From the NCBI GenBank assembly GCA_021818865.1, contig JAKASX010000032.1, forward strand, positions 1 to 34,493: a stretch of DNA of 34,493 nt. The letters are read 5' to 3'. Source of the stretch: Acidobacteriota bacterium (GTDB taxonomy: Bacteria; Acidobacteriota; Terriglobia; Acidiferrales; UBA7541). Below, in pieces: positions 1 through 12,944 of this stretch (its first letter is position 1; each line of letters begins with the position of its first letter). The notes beneath the pieces are model-generated. The model searched no databases and was not told the origin of the DNA. It saw nothing but the letters and a program-made list of their open reading frames with translations. The position numbers and the translations under genes were made by a program.

Positions 1-23
1 CATTTTGCCGTGGGGGAGCTGTG

Positions 24-383
24 ATGTCTTCGGACCAACCAGAAGCCGCGATTACCGGATTGAAACTCCGCACGCACACGCAGGGCGATGAAACGGTAAT
101 TTATTGCATCGGGAGATTGACGATCGAACACGCCGAAGTTCTGAAGCGGCATGGGAAATCGGTGATCCCGCAGACGAAGCGGCTGGTTTTGGACTTGAAG
201 GAAGTGAACTGGATGGATAGCGCGGGAATCGGCGCGCTGGTGGGGCTCTACGTTTCCGCGAAAAAGGCCGGCTGCGAATTTCTTCTGGTCAACTACAACA
301 AAACGATTCGGGACCTGCTGGGAATCACCCACTTGCTCTCTGTGTTCGAAACGTGCGCGCGAGCAGGCATGCGGGTGCCGTAA
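24..383 (+). CDS. STAS-domain protein, anti-sigma factor antagonist type
   Basis: A 119-residue single-domain STAS protein of the SpoIIAA/RsbV type. The family binds anti-sigma kinases in partner-switching and is controlled by phosphorylation of a Ser/Thr. The signature MDSAGIGALVGLY is visible, with Ser66 as the candidate phosphosite, preceded by the RLVLDLKEVNWMD strand typical of the fold. The length is normal for a stand-alone antagonist. I chose ATG 24 over GTG 21 because GGGGGAG at 12-18 is 5 nt from the ATG but only 2 nt from the GTG. No cognate kinase or sigma factor is seen nearby. Its last 20 codons resemble a gene remnant at 1221-1282. The family is clear; the partner is unknown. 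Confidence 0.9.
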   Translation: MSSDQPEAAITGLKLRTHTQGDETVIYCIGRLTIEHAEVLKRHGKSVIPQTKRLVLDLKEVNWMDSAGIGALVGLYVSAKKAGCEFLLVNYNKTIRDLLGITHLLSVFETCARAGMRVP

Positions 384-496
384 GATAGCGCCCGAATTCC
401 GTTCCCGAGTTCATTTCCTCCGAGACAGGAGCCAATCCATGACGACTGTGATGGCACTGCAGGGCCGCACGGCCTCAACGCTAACGAGTTGAAGCG

Positions 497-1159
497 ATGG
501 CGCATCGCGCTTTCATCTATTGCGTGCTGGCGGCGGTGATTGCCGGTAGCTGCCTGGTGGAGTATTGGGGCGCGCGGGGGCTGGCACGCTTGCCACAGAG
601 GAAACGGCTCCTCGTTGCCGGAGCCATCGCGGCGTTGTGTGCCTTGGGTGCGGTAGCCTTCCGCGGGAGCTTTCTAGCGAGCGATTGTTTCGTCTTGGCG
701 GCGGCGCTGCTCGTGGCAGTGCTCTTGGCACCGCCGCTGCGCTCAGTGGGCGCCCTGGCGGCTTTTCTGCTCACTGGGGCCGTCGCGGACCTCCTGTCCA
801 CCTACATGGGGCCAACGCAGTGGCTGGTGCGCTCATGGATCCACGGCTCGAGGTTGACGGCGATGCGATTCTTGGCGGTTACCGTGCCATTCAAAGGCAA
901 GCCGATACCCGTAATCGGCGTGGCCGACATGCTGTTCTTTGCCGTTTGCGTGACAGTGACAAGGAGGCTCGGCTGGCCAGAGCCGCCGGTTTTCCTCGTC
1001 CCGCTCGCGTCGCTTCTGACTGCACTGGGCGTGGGATTGCTGATCGGCTTGACGCCCGCGCTCCCTTTCCTTGCTGTGGGCGTGTTTGCCTACGTCGGCA
1101 TTTCCGGTCGCCATGGTTCGGGAACACCGAACCATGGGTCGAATTCTGCATTGAGTTAG
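497..1159 (+). CDS. Seven-TM membrane protein, candidate presenilin/SPP-like GxGD aspartyl protease
   Basis: A 220-residue, very hydrophobic protein with about seven predicted membrane segments (roughly 7-24, 38-55, 63-82, 84-101, 137-155, 163-183, 187-203). Segment 4 carries ADLLSTY with Asp98, and segment 5 carries IGVADMLFF with Asp144. After one further helix comes TPALPFLAVG at 186-195. This order (Asp helix, G-x-G/A-D helix, spacer helix, PAL helix) matches TM6 to TM9 of presenilins, signal peptide peptidases and archaeal PSH proteins, which often have DxxSxY around the first aspartate. GVAD departs from canonical GxGD by one residue. Family membership is inferred from motifs and their order, not from a search. 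The Shine-Dalgarno is weak (GAAG at 491-494, GAG at 486-488). A plain unknown membrane protein is the alternative. Confidence 0.6.
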   Translation: MAHRAFIYCVLAAVIAGSCLVEYWGARGLARLPQRKRLLVAGAIAALCALGAVAFRGSFLASDCFVLAAALLVAVLLAPPLRSVGALAAFLLTGAVADLLSTYMGPTQWLVRSWIHGSRLTAMRFLAVTVPFKGKPIPVIGVADMLFFAVCVTVTRRLGWPEPPVFLVPLASLLTALGVGLLIGLTPALPFLAVGVFAYVGISGRHGSGTPNHGSNSALS

Positions 1160-1220
1160 GCCATTTATCGCGCAAGCAAGCCCGAACTGCTGCAGCGAGG
1201 GAGCACATCTGCTTGCTGGC

Positions 1221-1282
1221 TATCAAACACTTGCCCTCGGTGTTTGAAACGTGCGCCAAAGCGGGTATGCGCCTGCCGGAAG
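1221..1282 (+). pseudogene. Remnant of a second STAS gene 3' end
   Basis: This stretch encodes IKHLPSVFETCAKAGMRLP, close to the C-terminus of the STAS protein at 24-383 (ITHLLSVFETCARAGMRVP). The nucleotides are roughly 75% identical to about 322-384 by eye. Only the tail is present: the sequence upstream (about 1160-1220) has no STAS core, and the equivalent of the stop codon has become GGA. It looks like the leftover end of a paralogous gene joined to an RHS fragment by recombination. Confidence 0.6.
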
Positions 1283-1283
1283 G

Positions 1284-2658
1284 ACGGTCACGGGTTTCGC
1301 GCCCGCACGTCGGGCTCGGCAACGAACGGCACGACGACCACCGCCTACAATCCCCTGAACCGCCCCAATCGGATCACCCAGCCTGACGGCAGTTCCGCGA
1401 CGACGCCCGAATCCGGCGCCACGTCCTGCGGTTATGCCGGCGACGGCCTGCGCGTCGAAGAATCCAGCGGCACGCTCTATTGGCCCGCGTATACTGGCCA
1501 GGTGATCGAAGAGACGAACACGAGCGGCGGAGTGCAACGCGACTACATTTTCCTCGCCGGGTGCCGCATCGCGTGGAAGGACTCCTCCGGCAACGTCTAC
1601 TATTATTTCTTGGACGCGATTGGCTCAACGCGAGCGGTCGCAGATTCGAGCGGGAACGTCTGTTTCAGCGCCGATTATTACCCCTACGGACAGGAGAATG
1701 ACTACGACACGTCCTGTTCGCCGACGTACAAGTTCACGGGCTACGAATACGATTCCGAGACGGGAAATTATTACGCATATGCGCGATATTACAATCCGCG
1801 CCTGGGCCGCTTCATGAGCGCCGATCCGTTGGCTGGCTCGGTCGACAATCCGCAATCTCTCAATCGGTACGCGTACGTGCTCAACAACTCGGAGAGCTTT
1901 ATTGATCCGTTCGGCCTACAGTGCTTCGAGAACGGAGATCCCACGTCCTGCCCTCCTTCCCCTCCGCAGTGCTTCCAGCTCGTCTATTGCGAAGGTGGCA
2001 GCGGCGGTGGCACCGGTGGCACGGACAACCCGCCGTGCAGCAGCGTTGCCGTGTATGGGAGCGGCGGTGACATGGCCGCCCGTGCCGTTTTCGCTGACCT
2101 CCTGTACGGCGCTGTCGGCTGCCAGCGACCCGGCACCGATCACGGTCCGACAAGGGTGCAAAAAAATTCGCCGCAAACGCAGGGCCCCCGCTCCTCTATT
2201 GGGCCGGCGGGAGGAACCTGGCAGGCTCCCACGTCAATTGGGTTGGTGAACCTGGCATTTGACGGGCAGCAGTATCTGACCGGAATCGGCGTGCCGCTCA
2301 CAGGCTCGAAGGGTGTGACTGTTGGCGGCTACCACGTTCCGCCAAACACGCTCTTCGGTGCGCAGCTGCTAGCCGGCCGGGGCGTCTCCCCGGGCTTCAA
2401 CAATCCGGCGCAGTCTCCCGGATTCACATCCGGAGAGATAACCACCGCCCGTTTGCCGGTGGCCACTTCACCGAGGTCAACGGGGCCGTCACGGTTGGAG
2501 GGTTCACCCCGTTCTCGGCCTTCACCCCTTCCAGCACGGTCCTCAATAGCCTCAACGCGAACTCTTCGGCACTCCGGGCGGCGTCCGACATCCAAAGTAT
2601 CCTCCAGTTCACCAGCAAGAATGTCAGCTGTCAGTCGCTCTTTGGAGGCGCACAATGA
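1284..2658 (+). pseudogene. RHS-repeat protein C-terminal fragment (5'-truncated, frameshifted)
   Basis: The reading frame lacks a start and enters directly into YD/RHS sequence (AYNPLNRPNRITQPDG, YAGDGLRVEESSGTLYW). The hallmark RHS core end follows: YDSETGNYYAYARYYNPRLG, then GRFMSADPLAGSV and LNNSESFIDPFGL. Intact RHS proteins are very large secreted or surface proteins in which the region after DPxG is a variable C-terminal domain, often a toxin. Here that tail is Cys/Pro/Gly-rich and matches no toxin I recognise. The frame used to about 2440 gives unlikely Ser/Arg-rich sequence afterwards. A frame shifted by one nucleotide gives GGHFTEVNGAVTVGGF and ends LFGGAQ at TGA 2656-2658, so a frameshift lies near 2435-2455. 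The stop overlaps the next gene's ATG. Confidence 0.75.
1433..1486 (+). repeat. 54-bp RHS-core direct repeat, copy 1
   Basis: The repeat starts TATGCCGGCGACGGCCTGCG and ends ATTGGCCC, encoding YAGDGLRVEESSGTLYWP. It matches 3878-3931 with two mismatches. It is the only segment shared by the two RHS fragments and could serve as a recombination site. Confidence 0.85.
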
Positions 2659-3209
2659 GGAAGCTAGCGCTCGGCGCGCTCACCGGCCTCTTGGCTGCCG
2701 CCGGACTCCTTCTGGGGGCCCGGTATGTGGCCCAGCGCAACATGAGGAGGGCCAACCTCTCACCCTTGGCCGACCTGGTAAAGGCCCGGATGGGCGCGGC
2801 AGTGTCGGCGTCCGGAGCGCAAAGTCAAAGCATACGGCGCGAGAGCAACCTGTTTGACACCTACGCCAGGGCGTTTCGGCTCGGGCTGTACGCGGCGCAG
2901 AGGGGCGTGCCGCAACCCAGCTCGCCACCGATCTCGAGCCGGGCGCTCCCGCTGCCCTCCCTCGGCGTCGCCCTAGACGCCTGGGGCCGGCCCTTCTGCC
3001 TTGCGAGGACCGCCGACCGGCTTGTGGTTTACAGCTCGGGCCCGGCCGCGCCCCCTGCGGTCGATTGCCGGTCGGTCCTCACCACAAGTGGCATATCCAA
3101 GCTTGAGACGGGCCGTCTCATTCAGCTCCGCTCCGGTGCACTCCTGCTCGTCCTTGCGCCGAGGGCCCCCACTCCCGCGACGCATCGGTCGCCCGGAGGC
3201 CCGAGTTAG
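2655..3209 (+). CDS. Small single-pass membrane protein coupled to the RHS C-terminus
   Basis: A 184-residue protein with an N-terminal hydrophobic helix (about 4-25, ALGALTGLLAAAGLLLGARY) after a short basic start, so probably membrane-anchored with an exported C-terminal part. Around residues 107-125 it has DAWGRPFCLARTADRLVVYS, reminiscent of the D-x-WG-x-P segment in C-terminal domains of GspG-type pseudopilins; this similarity is weak. The ATG at 2655 overlaps the RHS stop (ATGA), indicating translational coupling. A gene immediately after an RHS tip is often its immunity gene, which makes immunity one possibility; a pseudopilin-like accessory protein is another. No function can be assigned. 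Confidence 0.6.
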   Translation: MRKLALGALTGLLAAAGLLLGARYVAQRNMRRANLSPLADLVKARMGAAVSASGAQSQSIRRESNLFDTYARAFRLGLYAAQRGVPQPSSPPISSRALPLPSLGVALDAWGRPFCLARTADRLVVYSSGPAAPPAVDCRSVLTTSGISKLETGRLIQLRSGALLLVLAPRAPTPATHRSPGGPS

Positions 3210-3317
3210 CCATGACGCATGCAGCCAGCGGCGGCAGTGCGGTGGTGAGCGGTATGTAGACCACAGGTCTACGAGGTTGCGGGGCCGCGCTTTACAGCGA
3301 GGCCAGTCGGGCGGCTT

Positions 3318-3337
3318 GGCGGAGCGCCGGCTCCGCC
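3318..3337. terminator. Perfect 8-bp hairpin downstream of the RHS-linked gene
   Basis: GGCGGAGC (3318-3325), loop GCCG, then GCTCCGCC (3330-3337). It lies about 110 nt after the stop at 3209. No U-tract follows, so intrinsic termination is uncertain; it could be a palindromic repeat. Confidence 0.3.
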
Positions 3338-3543
3338 GAGCATCCTCGGCAGAGCCGGGACTTCTGCTGGCCGGGGAGCCAAGCGCCGAGAACACTACGC
3401 TTCGGCGCGTTTGAGAAAATGAAAGCCCCCGGAACTGGGACACCGTGCAACGGACAATCTACGGACAATTGAGGAGGGTTTGGAAGGCCGCTCGGCTCGT
3501 GAGCGACACCAAAGAAAGCACTCGGATTTTACCCTTAAAACCA

Positions 3544-3586
3544 GTTAACCGAAGGGTTGCAGGCTCGAATCCTACCCGGGGACCCA
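3544..3586 (+). other. tRNA-like 3' half (possible attachment-site remnant)
   Basis: The segment reads like the 3' half of a tRNA from the anticodon loop onward: GTTAAC, a T-arm GCAGG-CTCGAAT-CCTAC (one C/A mismatch, C instead of T at position 54), an acceptor strand CCGGGGA, discriminator C, then CCA at 3584-3586. No matching 5' half (expected TCCCCGG) lies within the preceding tRNA length. tRNA 3' halves are commonly left at junctions of integrative elements. It may equally be a chance resemblance or a dead tRNA-Asn-like gene. Confidence 0.3.
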
Positions 3587-3712
3587 TTCCAAACCTTCCT
3601 CGTTCTATTACGCGGCAACTCCGACTTCAACTGAGGCCAATTTTTTACGGACATTATGGACAATTGGGCTCAATCGGTCCAAACCGCCCGGAGCTAAGAT
3701 CCCGCAGGGCGC

Positions 3713-3940
3713 ATGGTGGCCGAAGAGAGGACCATTGCCGGCGTCACAAAAACGATCGGCTACCCGTACAACCTCGACGGCTCGCTCGCCCCAACCACCT
3801 ACCCCGACGGCCGCACGGCCAATTACACGTTCAACGGCGCGAACGAAATGACCAGCGCCAACGGCGCGAATTACACGTATGCCGGCGACGGCCTGCGCGT
3901 CGAAAAATCCAGCGGCACGCTCCATTGGCCCCCCCATTGG
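3713..3940 (+). pseudogene. RHS core fragment, second piece
   Basis: An open stretch encodes YD-repeat sequence (TKTIGYPYNLDGSLAP, YPDGRTANYTFNGANEMTS, NYTYAGDGLRVEKSSGTLHW), then loses RHS character at a run of seven C around 3930 and continues as unrelated sequence to a stop at 4036. It corresponds to the core just upstream of, and overlapping, the start of the fragment at 1284-2658. No variable C-terminal domain or stop of its own remains, so it is non-functional alone. Confidence 0.7.
3878..3931 (+). repeat. 54-bp RHS-core direct repeat, copy 2
   Basis: Matches 1433-1486 except for GAAA for GAAG and CTCCAT for CTCTAT; the offset between copies is 2445 bp. RHS homology in this fragment stops at the repeat's right end. 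Confidence 0.85.
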
Positions 3941-4103
3941 GCCGCCGGGCAGGCGAGCGCGATTCTCCGAGGACGAGGGGCCAATCCTGAATCTTGGGTT
4001 GCGAATGCGAGCACGAGTCGCCTAGCATGCGGGTGAACGCGCCTCGGTCGCCTTGCCCGGATGCAAAGCGGCCCTCTGGAAACGGTCAGGAGGTCATGAG
4101 CGA

Positions 4104-5306
4104 ATGAATACGAACGCAGGCAAGGCCGCGGCATCCATGGAGGCCGTCGTCGTGGAGGCACTCGATGGCCTGAAGATTGAACTGCCTTCCTGGGGTTTCG
4201 CCGACACGGGAACGCGGTTTGGAAAATTTCTGCAGCCTGCGGCCCAGACGATCGAGGAAAAGCTGGCCGATGCCGGCCAGGTCCACCAGTTCACCGGAAC
4301 TTGCCCAACGGTGGCGTTGCACGTTCTCTGGGATCTGCCGAAGGGGACGAAGCCGCCAGAAATTCTGAAGATGGCGGCGCGCTTTGGCGTGCGTGCGGGC
4401 TCGATCAGCCCGAACGTCTTCGAAGACCAGATCTACAAGCATGGGTCGCTTTCGAACGAGCAAGCGGAGGTACGCAGGCATGCGCTCGATCGCATTCTGG
4501 ATTCCGTGCACATCGCCCAGGAACTGGGATCGCGGGACGTGACTCCGTGGTTCGCCGACGGCTCGAACTATCCCGGGACGGCGAGCATCCGCGCGCGAAA
4601 GCACTGGATGGCGGAAGGATTGAAGCAGGCGCACGACGCCCTCAGCGAGAAGCAGCGCTTGCTGATCGAATACAAGCCGTTCGAGCCGGCGTTCTATCAC
4701 ACCGATATCGCCGACTGGGGCATGGCCTTGACGCTGGCCCGCTACGCCGGGCCGAAGGCGCGGGTGCTGGTCGATACGGGGCACCACTACCAGGCGCAGA
4801 ACATCGAGCAGATCGTCGCGTGGCTGCTCGACGAGGATATGCTGGGCGGGTTTCACTTCAATGACCGGCGGTACGCGGACGACGATCTCACGCTCGGCTC
4901 GATCGACCCTTATCAGGTCTTTCGAATCTTCGCCGAGATCCGCTACTACGAATGGGAAACAGGCCGGCGCGCGGACATCGCCTTCATGATCGATCAGAGC
5001 CACAACCTCAAGGGAAAGATCGAGGAGATGATCCAGACGGCGATGACCGCGCAGGAACTCTACGCCAAAGCCGCGCTCGTCGATTTCGCCGCACTGGCCA
5101 TAGCGCAGCGGGATCAGCGGCTGATCGATGCGGAAACCATTTACAAGGACGCCTTCAGCACCGACGTGCGGCCGAGCGTGCGCGACTGGAGACGGGCCAA
5201 GCGGCTTCCTGAGAATCCTCTGGCGGCGTTCCGGGAGAGCGGGTATATGGAACGCATCAGGCGGGAACGCGCGGGCCGTTCCGCGGCCGCCGGGAAATAC
5301 GCCTGA
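4104..5306 (+). CDS. rhaI: L-rhamnose isomerase (RhaI-type sugar isomerase)
   Basis: A 400-residue TIM-barrel sugar isomerase, expected to convert L-rhamnose to L-rhamnulose in the cytoplasm using divalent metal. It resembles the Pseudomonas stutzeri/rhizobial RhaI branch rather than E. coli RhaA. Visible family segments include HQFTGTCPTVALHVLWD, PWFADGSNYPG, LLIEYKPFEPAFYHTD, VLVDTGHHYQ, GGFHFNDRRYADDDLTLGS and FMIDQSHN, which carry the candidate metal- and sugar-binding His/Glu/Asp residues. I chose ATG 4104 because AGGAGG lies at 4088-4093; ATG 4096 is out of frame and stops after three codons. It is first in a three-gene rhamnose operon, with the next gene starting 36 nt after its stop. 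No dedicated promoter was recognised upstream. Confidence 0.93.
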   Translation: MNTNAGKAAASMEAVVVEALDGLKIELPSWGFADTGTRFGKFLQPAAQTIEEKLADAGQVHQFTGTCPTVALHVLWDLPKGTKPPEILKMAARFGVRAGSISPNVFEDQIYKHGSLSNEQAEVRRHALDRILDSVHIAQELGSRDVTPWFADGSNYPGTASIRARKHWMAEGLKQAHDALSEKQRLLIEYKPFEPAFYHTDIADWGMALTLARYAGPKARVLVDTGHHYQAQNIEQIVAWLLDEDMLGGFHFNDRRYADDDLTLGSIDPYQVFRIFAEIRYYEWETGRRADIAFMIDQSHNLKGKIEEMIQTAMTAQELYAKAALVDFAALAIAQRDQRLIDAETIYKDAFSTDVRPSVRDWRRAKRLPENPLAAFRESGYMERIRRERAGRSAAAGKYA

Positions 5307-5342
5307 ACGGTGCAAGCTTCGAAATCTGGCGGGAGAAATCCG

Positions 5343-7568
5343 ATGAGTCCGCGGGAAGTCCAAGCCGGCCCTGAATTGCATTACCTCAAGGATTTATGGG
5401 ACGAGAACGTCGCGTCCGCGCTCGATGAACCCGAAACTCTTCGCTACCGGTCGAACCTGCTCGGAGCGGATCTGCGCATCACGAACTTTGGTGGCGGCAA
5501 TACAAGCTCGAAACTCAAGCAGCGCGACCCGCTCGAAGACCGGGATGTCGAGGTGCTGTGGGTGAAAGGCAGCGGCGGGGATCTGGGCAGCGCGCAGCGC
5601 GGAGGCTTCGCCACGCTCTATTTGCAAAAGCTTCGCGGCCTGGAGCGAATCTACCGCGGGGTCGAGCACGAAGACGAAATGGTGGACTGCTACCCGCTCA
5701 TCCGGTTCGGCGTGAATCCGGTGGCGCCCTCCATCGATACCGCCTTGCATGGTTTCCTGCCGTTCGTTCACGCCGACCACCTGCATCCGGACTGGGCCAC
5801 GGCGCTGGCAGCAGCGGCCAATGGTCGCGAGCGGCTCGAGGAATACAACCGGCGCTTCGGCCATCACTTGCTCTGGTTGCCCTGGCAGCGGCCGGGATTC
5901 GAGCTGGCGATGATGCTGAAGCGCGCCGTCGAGGCAAATCCCTCGGCTGATGGCGCGGTGCTCGGCTGCCACGGTCTTTTCACCTGGGGCGACACTCAGC
6001 GGGAATGCTACCTGGCGAGCATTCGCATTATCGACCAACTCGGCCAGTTCGTTCAGGAGCATGTGGAACGCAAGGGCGAGAGCTTGTTTGGCGGGTCCCT
6101 CCACTCTGCGCGCTCCGATTCTCGCGAGATCGTTCAGGAAATCTTCCCGTTCCTGCGTGGCCGTGTCTCCAGCCACGAACGCGTGATTGGAAGCTTTAGC
6201 GATCTTCCGGAGGTGCAGCGCTTTGTAAACTCGCGAGACGCCCAGCGGCTGGCGTACCTGGGCACGAGTTGTCCGGACCACTTTGTCCGCACCAAGATTC
6301 GCCCGCTGTTCGTGGCATGGGATCCTGCTAGCGATAGCGTCACGGCCCTCAAGGAGATCCTCGATCGGTCGCTCGCCGAATACCGGCGAGAATACGAACA
6401 GTACTACCGCGAATTCGCCAAGCCGGATTCGCCGGGCATGCGCAATCCCAATCCCAGTGTGGTTCTGGTGCCCGGCGTCGGGATGTTCACCTTCGGGAAG
6501 AGCAAGAAGGAGGCGCGGCTCACCGGCGAATTCTACGTGAACGCGATTCACGTGATGCAGGGAGCGACAGCGCTCGAAAACGGCGCCCCGCCGCAAACCC
6601 TTCCCCAAGCGGGGAAGGCAGCGCCCTCCGGGGCCTTTGCTGTCTGCCGCAACTATGTGGCCTTGCCACCGAGGGAAGCGTTCGGAATCGAGTATTGGCC
6701 GCTCGAAGAAGCGAAATTGCGCCGGCAGCCGCCGGAAAAGGAACTGAGCCGCAAAGTCGCGTTCATTGCGGGTGCCGGGCACGGTATCGGGCGTGAAGTG
6801 GCGTTGCTGGCGGCCAGGCGCGGAGCTCACGTCGTGGCTGCCGATCTCGATCGGGAAGCCGCTGAGACAGTGGATCGGGAAGTAGCTGAGATCGGCGAGC
6901 GGGATGCGGTCGTGAACGCCATGCTCGATATCCGCGAACGCGCTTCGGTGTCCTCCGCCATGGCCAAAGCTGTCGAAACATTCGGTGGAATCGATATCCT
7001 CGTGAACACGGCAGCATTGTTTCCTGCCTCGGCCGATGGCCAGATCACCGATGAACAGTGGCGGCTGACGCTCGAGATCAATGTGACGGGGAATCATCTA
7101 TTGACTTCGGAGGCCGAGAAGATCTTCAGCCGACAGGGGCTTTCCGGAGCGGTCGTGCTCACCAGCTCCGCGAATGCCGTGGTCGCCAAACGAGGCAGCG
7201 AGGCCTACGACGTGAGCAAGGCCGCGGTGAGCCACCTTGTGCGTGAACTGGCGGTGCGGCTGGCTCCGCGCGTCCGCGTGAACGCCATTTGTCCGGCCAC
7301 CGTGGTCAAGGGTTCAACCATGTTCCCACGCGAGCGCGTCCTGGCTTCGCTTTCCAAATATGGGCTTGAACACAGCGCGCAGGAATCAACGGACGAACTG
7401 AGGAGAAAACTGGCGCATTTTTATGCTCGGCGGACGCTGATTGGCGTGAGTATCGATCCGGCGGATTGCGCCGAGGCCATACTTTTCCTGGCCAGCGAGC
7501 GCTCGCGCTGCACGACGGGGCATCTGTTCCCCGTGGATGGTGGGCTGGTCGAGGCGTTCCTGCGATAA
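5343..7568 (+). CDS. rhaD: Bifunctional rhamnulose-1-phosphate aldolase / short-chain (lactaldehyde) dehydrogenase
   Basis: A 741-residue fusion. Residues about 1-440 form a class II aldolase domain (RITNFGGGNTSSK, WVKGSGGDLG, HADHLHPDW, GCHGLFTWGD). Residues about 465-741 form a Rossmann short-chain dehydrogenase with GAGHGIGRE for NAD binding, a TSSAN serine, YDVSK (Tyr622) and a C-terminal VDGG. The family cleaves rhamnulose-1-phosphate to dihydroxyacetone phosphate and L-lactaldehyde, and the SDR half is thought to oxidise the lactaldehyde. ATG 5343 is preferred over GTG 5310 because GGGAG lies at 5331-5335. The linker near residues 420-435 (QTLPQAGKAAPSGAF) looks low-complexity. It lies between the isomerase and kinase genes. 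Confidence 0.94.
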   Translation: MSPREVQAGPELHYLKDLWDENVASALDEPETLRYRSNLLGADLRITNFGGGNTSSKLKQRDPLEDRDVEVLWVKGSGGDLGSAQRGGFATLYLQKLRGLERIYRGVEHEDEMVDCYPLIRFGVNPVAPSIDTALHGFLPFVHADHLHPDWATALAAAANGRERLEEYNRRFGHHLLWLPWQRPGFELAMMLKRAVEANPSADGAVLGCHGLFTWGDTQRECYLASIRIIDQLGQFVQEHVERKGESLFGGSLHSARSDSREIVQEIFPFLRGRVSSHERVIGSFSDLPEVQRFVNSRDAQRLAYLGTSCPDHFVRTKIRPLFVAWDPASDSVTALKEILDRSLAEYRREYEQYYREFAKPDSPGMRNPNPSVVLVPGVGMFTFGKSKKEARLTGEFYVNAIHVMQGATALENGAPPQTLPQAGKAAPSGAFAVCRNYVALPPREAFGIEYWPLEEAKLRRQPPEKELSRKVAFIAGAGHGIGREVALLAARRGAHVVAADLDREAAETVDREVAEIGERDAVVNAMLDIRERASVSSAMAKAVETFGGIDILVNTAALFPASADGQITDEQWRLTLEINVTGNHLLTSEAEKIFSRQGLSGAVVLTSSANAVVAKRGSEAYDVSKAAVSHLVRELAVRLAPRVRVNAICPATVVKGSTMFPRERVLASLSKYGLEHSAQESTDELRRKLAHFYARRTLIGVSIDPADCAEAILFLASERSRCTTGHLFPVDGGLVEAFLR

Positions 7569-7606
7569 GGAATTGCCAGGGTTTCGAGAGAAACTTCGGA
7601 AAGTAA

Positions 7607-9058
7607 ATGGAGACGCTCTGCTGCGTAGCTGTGGATTTGGGCGCTGCAAGTTGCCGTGTTTCGCTCGGGGAATGGGATGGCAGCCGAACCCGAGTACGCA
7701 CCGTACACCGGTACCCAAACTGTCCGATCGAGCGCGATGGCCATCTTTGGTGGCCGCTCGAGCGCCTTTGCCGGGAAGCCGATGAAGGATTGCGCCGGGC
7801 GGCGGAACTCCTTCCGGAGGGAAAGCGCCGGATCGATTCCATTGGAGTGGACGGCTGGGCGGTAGATTACGTCCGGCTGAATTCGGAGGGAAGGCCCCTC
7901 GCGCCTCCTTTTTGTTACCGCGATCCACGCACAGAGTCAGCGATGCCGGAGGTGTGGGAGCGAATTGGCAGGGAACGGCTCTACGAGCTGACAGGGATTC
8001 AGTTCCTGCGTTTCAACACGCTTTACCAGCTTTACGCCGATCGGCGCGACGCCATCAAGCCGGGCGCGGGCTGGCTCAACCTTCCTGAATTTTTCCTGTA
8101 CCGCTACGCCGGGTTCGAGCCGGATTCCGCCGTCTCCGAATATACCAACGCGACTCACACTCAGCTGCTGAACGCGCGGACGCGCAATTGGTGTGACGAA
8201 ATTTTTTCGCTCGCGGGCCTGGACCGCTCGGCTGCCCCACCGATCGTCGCCCCCGGAACTCAATTGGGGCCAGTTCGTGGCGAGCTCGCGGCGCTTCCCG
8301 CGTACCAGGCGACTCGAGTCATCACGCCCGCGTGCCACGATACAGGGTCGGCAGTCGCAGGAATTCCGGATGCCTCCGGGGATTGGGCCTTCATCAGCTC
8401 CGGCACGTGGTCGCTGGTCGGGACGCTGCTCGACGAGCCTTGCATCTCGAAGGAGGCTCTCGACGGGAACTTCACGAATGAGGGCGGAATCGGAGGCCAG
8501 ATCCGATTCCTGAAGAACGTCAACGGCATGTGGCTACTCGAGGAGTGCCTGCGCGAGTGGCATTCGGCCGAGGGACGTTCGTGGTCGGTCGCCGAACTCG
8601 TCGCCGAGTGCGAACGTCTTCCCGTGCCAACCGCGGTCTTCGACGTCGACGCCACCGATCTCATTCTGCCCGGGCGCATGCTTTCGCGAATCAATCGCGA
8701 ACTGCGAAACGCCGGCCACCCGCCCGTGCCGGAAGACGCAGCTCATGCACCCGAGATGGCGGGAGTGATTTTTGCCAGCCTCGCAGCCCGCTACGCAGAG
8801 GTTCTGAGAGCGCTGCTTCGGGTGACGCGCCGCGGCATTCGGAGCCTCTACGTCGTGGGCGGTGGCGCGCAAAATGCCTACGTCAATCGTCTGATCGCAA
8901 AGTACTCCGCGCTCGAAGTGAAGCGTGGGCCGGTCGAGAGTTCAACCCTGGGCAATCTTGCCGTTCAGTTCGCATCGCTTGAAAGCGGGCGGGGCCATGT
9001 CACGCGAGAGGCAGTCGCTCGTTGGGCAGTTCGCCTAAACGAGGGCACCTTCACCTAA
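7607..9058 (+). CDS. rhaB: Rhamnulokinase (FGGY family)
   Basis: A 483-residue sugar kinase that phosphorylates L-rhamnulose with ATP, supplying the aldolase encoded just upstream. The N-terminal phosphate-binding segment VDLGAASCRVSLGEWDG, the SIGVDGWAVDYV strand, PACHDTGSAVAGIP, FISSGTWSLVG and the ATP-site VVGGGAQNAYVNRL are all visible. The length matches the family. The start has a modest Shine-Dalgarno (GGAAAG) and is 38 nt after the rhaD stop. The stop codon is only 2 nt from the left end of an insertion-sequence remnant at 9061, so the IS landed at the operon's 3' edge and any later genes would be cut off from it. Confidence 0.93.
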   Translation: METLCCVAVDLGAASCRVSLGEWDGSRTRVRTVHRYPNCPIERDGHLWWPLERLCREADEGLRRAAELLPEGKRRIDSIGVDGWAVDYVRLNSEGRPLAPPFCYRDPRTESAMPEVWERIGRERLYELTGIQFLRFNTLYQLYADRRDAIKPGAGWLNLPEFFLYRYAGFEPDSAVSEYTNATHTQLLNARTRNWCDEIFSLAGLDRSAAPPIVAPGTQLGPVRGELAALPAYQATRVITPACHDTGSAVAGIPDASGDWAFISSGTWSLVGTLLDEPCISKEALDGNFTNEGGIGGQIRFLKNVNGMWLLEECLREWHSAEGRSWSVAELVAECERLPVPTAVFDVDATDLILPGRMLSRINRELRNAGHPPVPEDAAHAPEMAGVIFASLAARYAEVLRALLRVTRRGIRSLYVVGGGAQNAYVNRLIAKYSALEVKRGPVESSTLGNLAVQFASLESGRGHVTREAVARWAVRLNEGTFT

Positions 9059-9310
9059 GTGGCTGCTGAAAAACCCGGAAATTTTGTAACGGATCAGCGC
9101 GTGCGGAAGGACCATCCGCTGCGAGCGATCCGGGCCATGGTGGACGAAGTTCTGAAACAACTCTCGCCTCGGTTCGATAAAATGTATGCCAAGGCGGACC
9201 GCTCGTCGATCCCTCCCGAGCAACTGCTCCTGGTGGCCAAGACCGCCTTCAAGGCGGTCGCCGCCGCCGACTGCAAGGGCCTCTTTTTTAGCGTCCGGTA
9301 CGCTACATAA
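9059..9310 (+). pseudogene. Truncated transposase (IS5/IS1182-like, DUF772 N-terminus)
   Basis: The first ~55 residues match the N-terminus of IS5-group transposases: DHPLRAIRAMVDEVLKQL, SPRFDKMYAKADRSSIPPEQLL. After about 9235 the similarity ends and a short unrelated tail (KTAFKAVAAADCKG) runs to a stop, so the catalytic DDE region is absent. The frame begins at the IS terminal repeat, and a perfect 7-bp hairpin (GACCGCC/GGCGGTC, 9241-9259) sits at the break. This is an immobile stub. Confidence 0.75.
9061..9073 (+). repeat. IS terminal inverted repeat, left
   Basis: GGCTGCTGAAAAA, the exact reverse complement of 10748-10760. GGCTG(T/C)TGAAAAA-type ends are familiar from IS5/IS1182-group elements, which fits the transposase stub inside. 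Confidence 0.8.
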
Positions 9311-9329
9311 AAAATAGAACTCCCCTAGA

Positions 9330-9827
9330 CTACTTCATCCCAACGAGCGCGAATTTCCACGAGCCGTCGCTCTGCCGTTTCAGCAAACGCATTCCTTTGG
9401 TCCTCGGAACGATGACCGGTTTGCCGTTCGGAGAGATCTGGTAGGCCGCTTCGGTATAGCCCACCTCGATTGCCCAGCCGTCGAGGATTCGGACTTGCGT
9501 TATGTCGGTCTTGTACTTCAACACTCGGAAATTCGGATACTCGGTCCGGAACTTCGCATAAGCCTCTCCCATGGCTTTGATTCCCACAACCGGCGGGCCG
9601 GGGAACCCCAAATTGACCCCATCGGCGGACCAGAGAGCGGTAAGACATTTCGGATCTTGCGTCAGGGTGCACGCTTCATCTTCGCTGTGAAGGTTTGCGA
9701 TGGCCGCCATGTCTGCGGCGTGCGTGGCTTTTTGCCGCTGCGCGGCCGCGGTCGTGCCACGGGCAAAGGAACCGGCTCCGAAGCCCACGAGAAACGCCAT
9801 CGCCACGAGCGCAAAGGTCCGTGCCAT
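9330..9827 (-). CDS. Exported SnoaL/DUF4440-like (NTF2-fold) protein
   Basis: A 165-residue protein with an N-terminal signal peptide (ARTFALVAMAFLVGFGAGSF, cleavage likely near residues 23-29). A small cone-shaped NTF2-like domain follows: IANLHSEDEACTLTQD, LWSADGVNL, AMGEAYAKFRTEYPNF, a strand with GWAIEVGYTEAAYQ, and a final GSWKFALVGMK. The family includes enzymes and ligand-binding proteins of varied or unknown role; no substrate can be named. The start is well supported by AAAGGAGG (9833-9840), 5 nt from the ATG. It lies inside the IS-bounded segment. Confidence 0.8.
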   Translation of the reverse strand: MARTFALVAMAFLVGFGAGSFARGTTAAAQRQKATHAADMAAIANLHSEDEACTLTQDPKCLTALWSADGVNLGFPGPPVVGIKAMGEAYAKFRTEYPNFRVLKYKTDITQVRILDGWAIEVGYTEAAYQISPNGKPVIVPRTKGMRLLKRQSDGSWKFALVGMK

Positions 9828-10097
9828 GGGGGCCTCCTTTCGATGATCGCCTGCCGGAACGAAGAAACTTGTACGGAGTTTACTACGCCGAATTTGTTCC
9901 CGGCGTCATTTCTTCAGCACGGATGACCAGCTCATGGGCGGCGCAACATAGAAACTTGAGGCCGCACACGGTTCGCGATAACGCGGTTAGCGATCGCGAC
10001 GTTGCGCGGCCTCGATCAGTTCCTGAAGGCCCTTTGGAGACGGACGGGCTGGGGTGCGGAGATCCCGACCCAAGGCGCTTGCGGGCGTGATGCCCTG

Positions 10098-10742
10098 CTA
10101 CTGCCGGGTGACGTGGATATGGAACGTCAGATTGAAATCGCCGTCGTTGTAAGTTGTCGTAGATTTGTGCGTATTCACGGTCTCTGATGAGCGAGCGATG
10201 GTTGTGCCGTAGGTGGTGATGCTGTTCGGGTCGCTACTGCTCACCAGTACGGGGTCGATGGTCCAGTCAGTGCAGTAAGTCCCGTTGTCGGTGTTGCACG
10301 CAAAATTCACCAGGCCGGTTTCTGGCTCGCTGGCATAGGGACCTGTCATGGAAAGGCCATTGGTGTCGCCGCTCGTGCCTGTGGGAATCAGGTCAATGAG
10401 CATCGGGCAGGTGAAGTGATCGCCCGCCTTCATGGTCACGGGATTGTTGCCGGCGAGATAGCACTTGTCCTCCATTTTCGCCACTGTATGGAGGATGCCC
10501 AGCTCATTGGCGTTTGTCCCTGGAACAGCATTAGAGCTGTCAAGCGTGATGGTGAATGTGCGCTGGGTAGAGCTGGTGAGATTGAGTTCCCAGCGGCCCG
10601 TTGCGGCAGGATAAGTCAAGGCCGTGGTGTCTTTGAACGCCGCTGCGGAGCTGGCTCGGGACGCCGGCAGCACAAAAACACCGCGGTAAAACCCGCTCAG
10701 CACTCCAAAATCAAGCAAAAGAGAAAGAAAACGGCCGCCCAA
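10098..10742 (-). CDS. Exported beta-rich protein of unknown function, possibly 5'-altered by an IS end
   Basis: A 214-residue frame rich in Thr, Ser and Asn with alternating strands (GRWELNLTSSTQRTFTITL, TSGDTNGLSMTGPYASEPE, FNLTFHIHVTRQ) and four cysteines after the N-terminus (in CYLAG, FTCPM, FACNT, YCTDW). This suggests an extracellular beta-sandwich. The N-terminus (MGGRFLSLLLDFGVLSGF) is hydrophobic but irregular, and its start codon is 5 bp from the IS right inverted repeat. The original start and signal peptide may have been lost or replaced. I do not recognise the family. Confidence 0.5.
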   Translation of the reverse strand: MGGRFLSLLLDFGVLSGFYRGVFVLPASRASSAAAFKDTTALTYPAATGRWELNLTSSTQRTFTITLDSSNAVPGTNANELGILHTVAKMEDKCYLAGNNPVTMKAGDHFTCPMLIDLIPTGTSGDTNGLSMTGPYASEPETGLVNFACNTDNGTYCTDWTIDPVLVSSSDPNSITTYGTTIARSSETVNTHKSTTTYNDGDFNLTFHIHVTRQ

Positions 10743-10747
10743 AGCGA

Positions 10748-10760
10748 TTTTTCAGCAGCC
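10748..10760 (-). repeat. IS terminal inverted repeat, right
   Basis: TTTTTCAGCAGCC, the perfect 13-bp inverse of 9061-9073. It directly precedes the truncated TPR gene. Confidence 0.8.
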
Positions 10761-10761
10761 T

Positions 10762-11074
10762 GCTAGGCGCCGAAGCCTTGGCCAAGGCGTGTGAGAGGCA
10801 GGGCGACACTTCCGCTGCCCTCCAGGTTCTCGAATCCGCCTCCGCCAATAGGGCACGCGTCAACTACTATATCTCCATCGTCGGCGGGCCGTTCTGGATG
10901 CGCGACGAAATGGACTTGGCCCAGCTTTACCGCCGCCTTGGCCGCATCCAGGACGCCGAGAAAATCGAAAACGAATTGCGTAAGCTGCTAGCCTACGCCG
11001 ATCCCGATTTCCCCCTCCTCGTTGAATTGAAGCGGCTGCAAAATGCCTCTCGCCACGTCCGCAAGCCGAACTGA
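10762..11074 (+). pseudogene. C-terminal fragment of a TPR protein
   Basis: About 103 codons open from the IS end to TGA 11072-11074. They encode a TPR-like helix pair (ALAKACERQGDTSAALQVLE) and LAQLYRRLGRIQDAEKIENE, ending LLAYADPDFPLLVELKRLQ. This is the usual C-terminal ending of large acidobacterial TPR proteins, often fused to Ser/Thr kinases or winged-helix domains. The only start is a TTG at 10778 with no Shine-Dalgarno, so the gene appears truncated by the insertion at 10760. Confidence 0.65.
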
Positions 11075-11590
11075 CGTCTCGCCAGGCTTGCGCGAACCGG
11101 AAAAACGCCGGAATCTACGCCGCGTCACTCGCGCCGGCCGCAAATCCCCCTCCTTACGTAGAACCACCCCTCGCGCTCCGAGTCGCATCGCGCGAAAATG
11201 CCGTCGCGTGCAGATAAAAGCGGCCCTCTATTCGCGCAAAGGAGGAAGCATCACATGCCGAGCCTTGCATCGAGAGAAAATCGGCTCGCTCGCCCGACGA
11301 GGGCCGCAACCCTCAATTCGGCTGCCGCAGCCCACTCAAAAGAGGCCCAAAAAATGACACCCTGCAAAAATTATCTCGCTGAAACAAAACCACCTACCGG
11401 TTTTTTTGCTCGACAGGGTTGACACCCTGCCACGCCATCCCCGAACCTTTCGCGCGCCCCATGTTTGCCATCGCCCAAACGCCGAGCCTCTCGACGCCCC
11501 CACTCCCTCCGCATTCCGTAACGTTTCCGCGGACCGGCCCGTCGGCCGTCACGCATTTCCAAACCTGCCCCCACGTGCTGTCCCTCCTTG
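11075..11590. other. Gene-poor interval
   Basis: No convincing coding region is present; open frames have no family resemblance or ribosome site. A direct repeat TGACACCCTGC occurs at 11355-11365 and 11420-11430, and a small palindrome CAGGGT-TGAC-ACCCTG lies at 11414-11429 after a run of seven T. This appears to be decayed DNA between the truncated TPR gene and an inverted-repeat element. Confidence 0.5.
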
Positions 11591-11768
11591 ACATTGTCCC
11601 CTTTTGTCCTCGTTAAGAATGTCCCCTTAATAGGGCGACAATATACCTGACAAATCAAACGGCATCGCAGGGAAAAGCGAGCAAGACCAACGACGAAAAC
11701 CAGAACAAAACTAAACCAAAACCTGCAAAGGGGACACTTCAAACGAGGTAAAAAAGGGGACATTTTAA
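11591..11768. mobile_element. Short inverted-repeat element with IS21-like ends (MITE-like)
   Basis: Left arm 11591-11630 contains TTGTCCCCTTTTGTCCTCGTT then ATGTCCCCTTA. The right arm, about 11726-11768, read in reverse complement gives ATGTCCCCTTTTTTACCTCG and then GTGTCCCCTT. Each arm thus has two direct copies of TGTCCCCTT separated by a CCTCGTT box, and the arms are inverted. Multiple terminal repeats beginning TGT are a feature of IS21-type ends. The 95-bp interior codes for nothing, so this is a non-autonomous or deleted element. Confidence 0.6.
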
Positions 11769-11837
11769 GAGAGCGTTGACGAATTGCTGCTCGTTGCCTT
11801 GACACTTTGGCGGGCTTGCTGTTACGGTGCGGCACGG

Positions 11838-12944
11838 ATGAAACGAATCGCACGAAATCTGATTCTGCTCGCCGCGATCGTGGTGGTGCTGGGGCTCTTG
11901 CTCTACCACTCGCGCGGCGCGCTGGCCAAACAGGGATTCAGCTGGGCCAAGCTGGAGGAGGCCGTTGAGGGCGCACGGCTGAGCTTGCTGCTGCTGGCGG
12001 CGGCGGCGATCTACGTCTGCTACGCGATCCGATCGCAGCGGTGGGTTGCGTTTTCGCGGTATCTGGGGCGGACGCGATTCTGGAGCGTCTACGAATCGAC
12101 GCTGATGGGATTTTCGGCGATTTTTCTCTTGGGCCGGGCGGGCGAGCCGGTGCGGCCGCTGCTGATCGCGCGGAAGGAGCGGGTGTCGATTTCGGGAACG
12201 TTTGGCGTGTATGTGCTGGAGCGGATTTTCGACCTAGCGGCGGCGCTGGCGGTTTTCAGCCTGGGCTTGGTCCTCGCAAGCGGGCGTTTGGCGGCGACGG
12301 GAGACGATTCGGCGATCGTGGCGGCGCGAGCGGGCGGACTGGTAATGATGGGGTTGCTGGTGCTGATCGTTGCGTTTCTCGTCTATTTCCGGATGCATGG
12401 AGCGGGATGGCTGGCGCAGCGGCTGGACGTTTGGCGGCAGAAGCGCGGCTGGCGGAGAAAGGTGGCGCTGATTTTCGCGGGATTCAGCGAAGGGCTGCAA
12501 TGCATTCGGACGTGGCGGGACCTTGTGGAAGCGTTGATCTATTCCGTGGCGCACTGGGCGCTGGTGGCGCTTTCGTTTCTGTGGGTTTGCCATAGTTTCG
12601 GCGGGAGCCTGGGGAAATTGGGCTACGCGGACGCGATGCTGCTGCTCGGCGTGACGATGCTGGGAGCGATGGTCCAATTGCCGGCGATCGGCGGCGGCGC
12701 GCAGGTGGCCAGCATGATCGCGCTGACTGAGTTTTTCGGCATCGGACAAGCGCCCGCCGCGGCGGCGGCGATCGTGCTGTGGCTGGTGACGTTTGCGGCG
12801 GTGCTGGTGGCGGGAATACCGCTCTTCATCCGGCAGGGGCTTTCGATGCACGAGCTGTGGGCGCTGGCTTCGGAATCGAAGCGCGAGGAGCTAAACGCGG
12901 AAGACGCCGAAGCCGAGCAGCCGGCCCGGGAGGCGCGGCGATGA
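11838..12944 (+). CDS. Flippase-like membrane protein (LPG-synthase TM / UPF0104 family)
   Basis: A 368-residue polytopic inner-membrane protein with about eight hydrophobic segments (first about 7-24, last about 315-336). It shows the family signatures LLGRAGEPVRPLLIARKERV and FGVYVLERIFDLAA near residues 95-140, and LPAIGGGAQVASMIALTEFF near residues 280-300. The family includes the flippase half of MprF and YbhN-like proteins, whose substrates are lipids or polyprenyl-linked sugars. No aminoacyl-transferase domain is attached, so the substrate is unknown. I chose ATG 11838 (KRIARN, typical positive N-terminus) over upstream TTG 11784; the ribosome site is weak for both. It overlaps nrdR by 4 nt. 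Confidence 0.82.
   Translation: MKRIARNLILLAAIVVVLGLLLYHSRGALAKQGFSWAKLEEAVEGARLSLLLLAAAAIYVCYAIRSQRWVAFSRYLGRTRFWSVYESTLMGFSAIFLLGRAGEPVRPLLIARKERVSISGTFGVYVLERIFDLAAALAVFSLGLVLASGRLAATGDDSAIVAARAGGLVMMGLLVLIVAFLVYFRMHGAGWLAQRLDVWRQKRGWRRKVALIFAGFSEGLQCIRTWRDLVEALIYSVAHWALVALSFLWVCHSFGGSLGKLGYADAMLLLGVTMLGAMVQLPAIGGGAQVASMIALTEFFGIGQAPAAAAAIVLWLVTFAAVLVAGIPLFIRQGLSMHELWALASESKREELNAEDAEAEQPAREARR

Follow-up and report, generated by a model that had tools for sequence, protein, structure and literature searches.

The DNA considered here (the window) comprises 34,493 nucleotides, positions 1 to 34,493 of contig JAKASX010000032.1 from an Acidobacteriota bacterium (assembly GCA_021818865.1), and all coordinates refer to it. 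An ATG-initiated open reading frame at 497–1159 on the forward strand codes for 220 residues. Its product very likely adopts the fold of presenilin and signal peptide peptidase (SPP) and would act as a compact intramembrane aspartyl protease, catalysis being inferred; it belongs to an unnamed bacterial family from Acidobacteriota. The gene and its parts are as follows.

497..1159, forward strand: gene of a protein with a predicted presenilin/SPP fold (220 residues, seven helices); from the reading frame, its translation, homologues, the structural model and fold matches
500..727, forward strand: helices 1–3 (residues 2–30, 34–54 and 59–77), the N-terminal part; from the AlphaFold2 model and hydropathy
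746..808, forward strand: helix 4 (residues 84–104) with the putative catalytic Asp98 (788–790) within A-D-L-L-S; from the model, Asp98 and Ser101 being invariant in 11/11 family members
812..919, forward strand: inter-aspartate loop, predicted to be periplasmic, with short helices (106–115, 121–125) and strands (127–132, 135–141); from modelled secondary structure and charge pattern
917..967, forward strand: GVAD (residues 141–144) and helix 5 (142–157) with the putative catalytic Asp144 (926–928); from the model, Gly141 and Asp144 being invariant in 11/11
980..1045, forward strand: helix 6 (residues 162–183), a spacer; from the model
1055..1117, forward strand: PALP (residues 187–190, nucleotides 1055–1066) opening helix 7 (residues 188–207); from the model, Pro190 being invariant in 11/11

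The protein carries the motifs ADLLSTY (Asp98), VIGVADMLFF (Asp144) and TPALPF (residues 186–191), and both hydropathy and the model place three of its seven helices ahead of the first aspartate helix. The original prediction, made from the sequence letters, described two aspartates in consecutive hydrophobic helices, a spacer helix and then TPALPF; the translation and the model bear this out. The likeness it saw between D-L-L-S-T-Y and the archaeal presenilin/SPP homologue (PSH) is also real: PSH has YDAISVY, and one homologue of the window protein has ADAISF.

A family of small membrane proteins in Acidobacteriota

Iterated searches recovered ten further intact homologues in Acidobacteriota genomes, 25–53% identical: a paralogue on contig 118 of the same genome (46%) and copies in genomes G002 (53%), G076, G230, G432, G458, G764, G787, G890 and G917. 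The G787 copy has a stop codon at its extreme N terminus. Distribution of the family is rare and patchy (4/396 genomes in one draw from the phylum, 5/399 in one from the class). A further genome, G759, holds a decayed copy (L022, about 1392–1677) split across frames, in which IGVGAL replaces GxGD and the second aspartate position is lost.

Conservation was counted in an 11-row alignment of the window protein and its ten homologues. Only 11 columns are invariant, among them Asp98, Ser101, Gly141, Asp144 and Pro190. Both aspartates, lying in consecutive predicted helices (4 and 5) as in peptidase family A22, are thus kept by every homologue, a point on which the original prediction had staked its reading. 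The PAL motif of that family has its counterpart in P-[AV]-[LIV]-P, found in nine members; the other two have AALP and FAIP, with the final proline invariant. A true GxGD (GVGD, GMGD, GIGD or GEGD) occurs in 8/11 members, and the exceptions are GVAD in the window copy, GVTD in its paralogue and GVSD in the G890 protein, so that the variant originally called atypical is indeed peculiar to the window copy.

The ratio of nonsynonymous to synonymous substitution rates (dN/dS) is 0.32–0.41 for the pairs with the least synonymous saturation, the window copy's own pairs being close to saturated. A composite pattern, D..S-x(30-80)-G.[GAST]D-x(30-65)-[AVG][LIV]P, matched all 11 members and no other frame in a scan of 832 frames of at least 150 residues (230,972 residues). 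Judged by sequence comparison, the motif set is more than a chance arrangement, because ten intact homologues exist, dN/dS has the above values, and the motif residues are among so few invariant columns; the specificity of the pattern points the same way.

A wider search through 84,980 genomes gave no match when the single protein was the query and three loci, all in Acidobacteriota, when a three-sequence profile was used; the method reaches close relatives only, and therefore absence outside this phylum is not shown by it. A plasmid search with one homologue gave no match. A match of the 11-row profile in G381 (E 7.6e-4) was taken as chance, the frame looking by eye like a MacB/FtsX-like ABC permease.

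Predicted fold and membrane orientation, and a proposed mechanism

AlphaFold2 run with nine family sequences and no templates gave a model with a predicted local distance difference test score (pLDDT) of 87.7 and a predicted TM-score of 0.82. With only three sequences no usable model was obtained (pLDDT 41), which indicates that the fold was not called up by the motif by itself. Past the first aspartate helix the model has a short helix and two strands, then the GxGD helix, the spacer and the PALP helix. From the aspartate helix to the GxGD helix this is the order seen in substrate-bound gamma-secretase: transmembrane helix 6 (TM6), TM6a, beta-1, beta-2 and TM7 (PMC7248309).

The model has the three-dimensional fold of presenilin and SPP. 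A Foldseek search of the PDB ranked SPPL2a at the top (E 3.4e-3, probability 1.00), followed by 15 presenilin chains, ahead of other folds. VIA-align ranks 1–24 were all presenilin-1 (PS1), presenilin-2 (PS2), SPPL2a or PSH, with Z 11.9–16.7 over 159–207 residues. The highest Z was that of PS1 (16.7; 207 residues, 4.0 Å); SPPL2a reached 14.2–14.6 over 183–187 residues (best: 187, 3.3 Å) and PSH 12.1–13.4 over 172–178 residues (best: 172, 4.0 Å). These 24 best alignments agree with the presenilin/SPP-like assignment first proposed for the gene, and no confident match to an unrelated membrane family was found, A22 chains scoring at least 11.9 versus 6.2 for the next fold. A viral structure library gave no match to the model.

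In the structural alignments the match to presenilin, SPPL2a and PSH begins with TM1 and extends through the last helix of each. Of the earlier proposal that three N-terminal helices stand in place of five, the count holds; because the alignments begin at TM1, the two missing helices may have been lost from within the protein and not from its N terminus. A weak hhalign alignment places the end of helix 2, with helices 3–4, opposite the end of TM4 and TM5–TM6 of PSH. Taken with the structural alignments, this suggests that the two lacking helices are TM2 and TM3. Presenilin TM2 is a mobile substrate gate (PMC7248309).

The distribution of charge suggests an orientation. Family means of Lys plus Arg are 3.4 in loop 1, 1.7 in loop 3, 2.0 in loop 5 and 2.5 at the C terminus, versus 0.4 at the N terminus, 1.0 in loop 2 and 0.2 in loop 6; loop 4 is long and less informative. 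By these loop charges the N terminus and the inter-aspartate loop would be periplasmic and the C terminus cytoplasmic (N-out/C-in). In SPP the N terminus faces outward and the segments cut are N-in (type II), and in presenilin both are reversed (PMC7768045). With an SPP-like orientation the likely substrates would therefore be N-in segments, and signal-peptide remnants and signal anchors are the better guess.

In the mechanism that we propose, Asp98 and Asp144 of the adjacent helices 4 and 5 would hold a water molecule between them and activate it, so that a peptide bond within a transmembrane segment of the substrate is cut. The unwound substrate would be held as an extra beta-strand, as in gamma-secretase, by the beta-hairpin that precedes the GxGD helix together with the PALP turn of helix 7. 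The window copy, with its natural GVAD, can be expected to be slow rather than dead, by analogy: the G219A change in PSH slows proteolysis considerably, as do PS1 G384A and the SPPL2b equivalent, and none of them abolishes activity (PMC2947513).

Weighing of the readings and their significance

Several results weigh against the protease reading. Sequence searches of Pfam, NCBIfam, PHROG and the PDB with the protein, its homologues and profiles gave nothing above noise, and none of the 11 members matched PF06550 or NF041679, the latter being matched by Natrinema PSH at 3e-120 as a positive control. A PF06550 scan of 247 Acidobacteriota genomes likewise gave no match. Alignment of the family profile with PSH by hhalign placed the first aspartate in the correct register and scored 19.1–19.6, which is not significant: 3/60 block-shuffled controls equalled it, and sequence homology to PSH is therefore not claimed. 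The residue preceding Asp98 is Ala or Val in all members, the YD tyrosine of A22 being absent throughout; seven helices are found in model and hydropathy in place of the nine of A22; the window copy and its paralogue deviate from GxGD; and no conserved neighbour gene accompanies the family. Finally, presenilin structures were part of what AlphaFold2 learned from, which makes the model, and with it the fold result, less than fully independent evidence.

This last point, together with the non-significant alignment to PSH, would favour an unrelated membrane protein such as a transporter or scaffold, whose likeness to presenilin arose by chance or from AlphaFold2 memory. We consider this quite improbable, as the gap in Z between A22 and the next fold is wide, the invariant residues are those that the presenilin mechanism needs, and the shallow first model did not fold. 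An enzyme like type IV prepilin peptidase (A24), or another GxGD enzyme acting at the membrane surface, is less probable still. Enzymes of the A24 type also have two aspartates, one of them in GxGD, and are common in bacteria, but they are not known to carry a PAL motif. The prepilin peptidase reading was rejected: no family member matches PF01478, two genuine A24 genes lie elsewhere in this genome, and A22 chains take the top structural ranks, with no A24 chain among the matches listed by Foldseek and VIA-align.

The fold may also be right and the activity lost. On this view GVAD in the window copy and GVTD in its paralogue would mark pseudoproteases, inactive and serving to bind membrane segments or to chaperone them, and the GxGD members would be active. 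Loss of the second glycine in both copies of this genome, and in the G890 protein, speaks for this possibility, as does the broken G759 gene. It is nevertheless unlikely, though less so than the two preceding alternatives: unlike typical pseudoenzymes, these copies retain both aspartates, Gly141 and the PALP proline; the equivalent Gly-to-Ala exchanges only slow the characterized enzymes; and dN/dS gives no hint of relaxed constraint, with the caveat that the pairs involving the window copy are close to saturation.

The compact intramembrane protease thus remains the strongly preferred reading. The family is described as new: it shares with A22 the predicted fold and the putative catalytic residues, and it is not filed in A22, PF06550 or NF041679 because the YD tyrosine, the nine helices and a match to the hidden Markov models are all lacking. 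A broader proposal stands at about an even chance, namely that these proteins form a minimal bacterial presenilin/SPP branch of 200–220 residues with seven helices, most likely without TM2–TM3, oriented like SPP and independent of partner proteins, the slowing Gly-to-Ala/Thr/Ser change being the wild-type state of some of them, the window copy included.

Presenilin is the cutting enzyme behind Alzheimer's amyloid, and proteases of its type have been studied in eukaryotes and archaea. The original prediction held them to be poorly described in bacteria, and the open-access literature accords with this: no described bacterial presenilin or SPP was found there, the lone phrase "bacterial presenilin" in a review denoting a homologue used in lipid-binding work. 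If the proposal is true, the 200-residue single-chain form would be among the smallest natural versions of the fold, would show which helices catalysis needs and would be convenient to handle in structural and inhibitor studies. Intramembrane aspartyl proteolysis would, moreover, gain a bacterial branch, and one could ask whether this branch is ancient or was transferred. Members with GVAD, GVTD and GVSD would offer a natural test of the glycine beside the catalytic aspartate, the position of the Alzheimer mutation G384A.

Genomic context and comparison with known systems

Two features flank the protease gene.

21..383, forward strand: upstream STAS-domain gene (Pfam STAS, 7e-16; 84% nucleotide identity in G003), which occurs in the genus without the protease
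1214..1282, forward strand: diverged 69-bp duplicate of the STAS gene's 3′ end (78% identical to 316–384), lying directly behind the protease gene

The repeat at 1214–1282 is perhaps a recombination scar. It is followed by frames resembling RHS repeats and then by sugar-catabolism genes. In G003 (L038), a genome of the same genus, about 80 bp separate the STAS gene from sequence that matches window positions 11061–12577. The intervening 408–11060 (about 10.6 kb) is absent there and forms a strain-variable segment containing the protease gene, the RHS-like frames and the sugar-catabolism genes (isomerase-like, aldolase/dehydrogenase and FGGY kinase). Positions 1318–2000 and 3713–4036 are mutually similar RHS-like YD-repeat fragments, apparently decayed (by eye; no Pfam match). 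A dispersed intergenic repeat of about 395 bp, 85% identical, lies at 11152–11546 and in L005 (7341–7736); it also follows the contig 118 paralogue of the protease gene on its downstream side and, in G003, the STAS gene. The neighbourhoods of the ten homologous loci share no common partner gene, except between the closely related G432 and G458. The context fits a dispensable, movable single gene, since the segment is missing from G003 and neighbours are not shared, and it gives no clue to the substrate.

Among known systems, type IV prepilin peptidase and FlaK (A24) are GxGD-type di-aspartyl membrane proteases that occur in bacteria; they differ in aspartate spacing and in the Pfam profile discussed above. 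PSH (MCMJR1; PDB 4hyc, 4hyg and 4y6k; NF041679, PF06550) resembles the family in predicted fold, in D-x-[IL]-S, in the GxGD that eight members have, in [LI]-P at the last helix, and in being a single-chain prokaryotic protein. It differs in having nine helices rather than seven and YD rather than [AV]D, in being archaeal, and in a sequence match that does not reach significance. SPPL2a/SPP (A22B; PDB 9k92 and 9k93) provides the best single Foldseek match and shares the predicted N-out/C-in orientation, but it has nine helices, the YD tyrosine and, in SPPL2a, an N-terminal extension, and its sequence identity is about 13–14%. Presenilin-1/2 (A22A, the catalytic subunit of gamma-secretase) gives the highest Z and the same order of aspartate helix, short helix, strands, GxGD, spacer and PALP helix. 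Unlike the compact protein described here, it has nine helices, a long, cleaved inter-aspartate loop, a requirement for three partner proteins, and an orientation opposite to the one predicted for the Acidobacteriota family.
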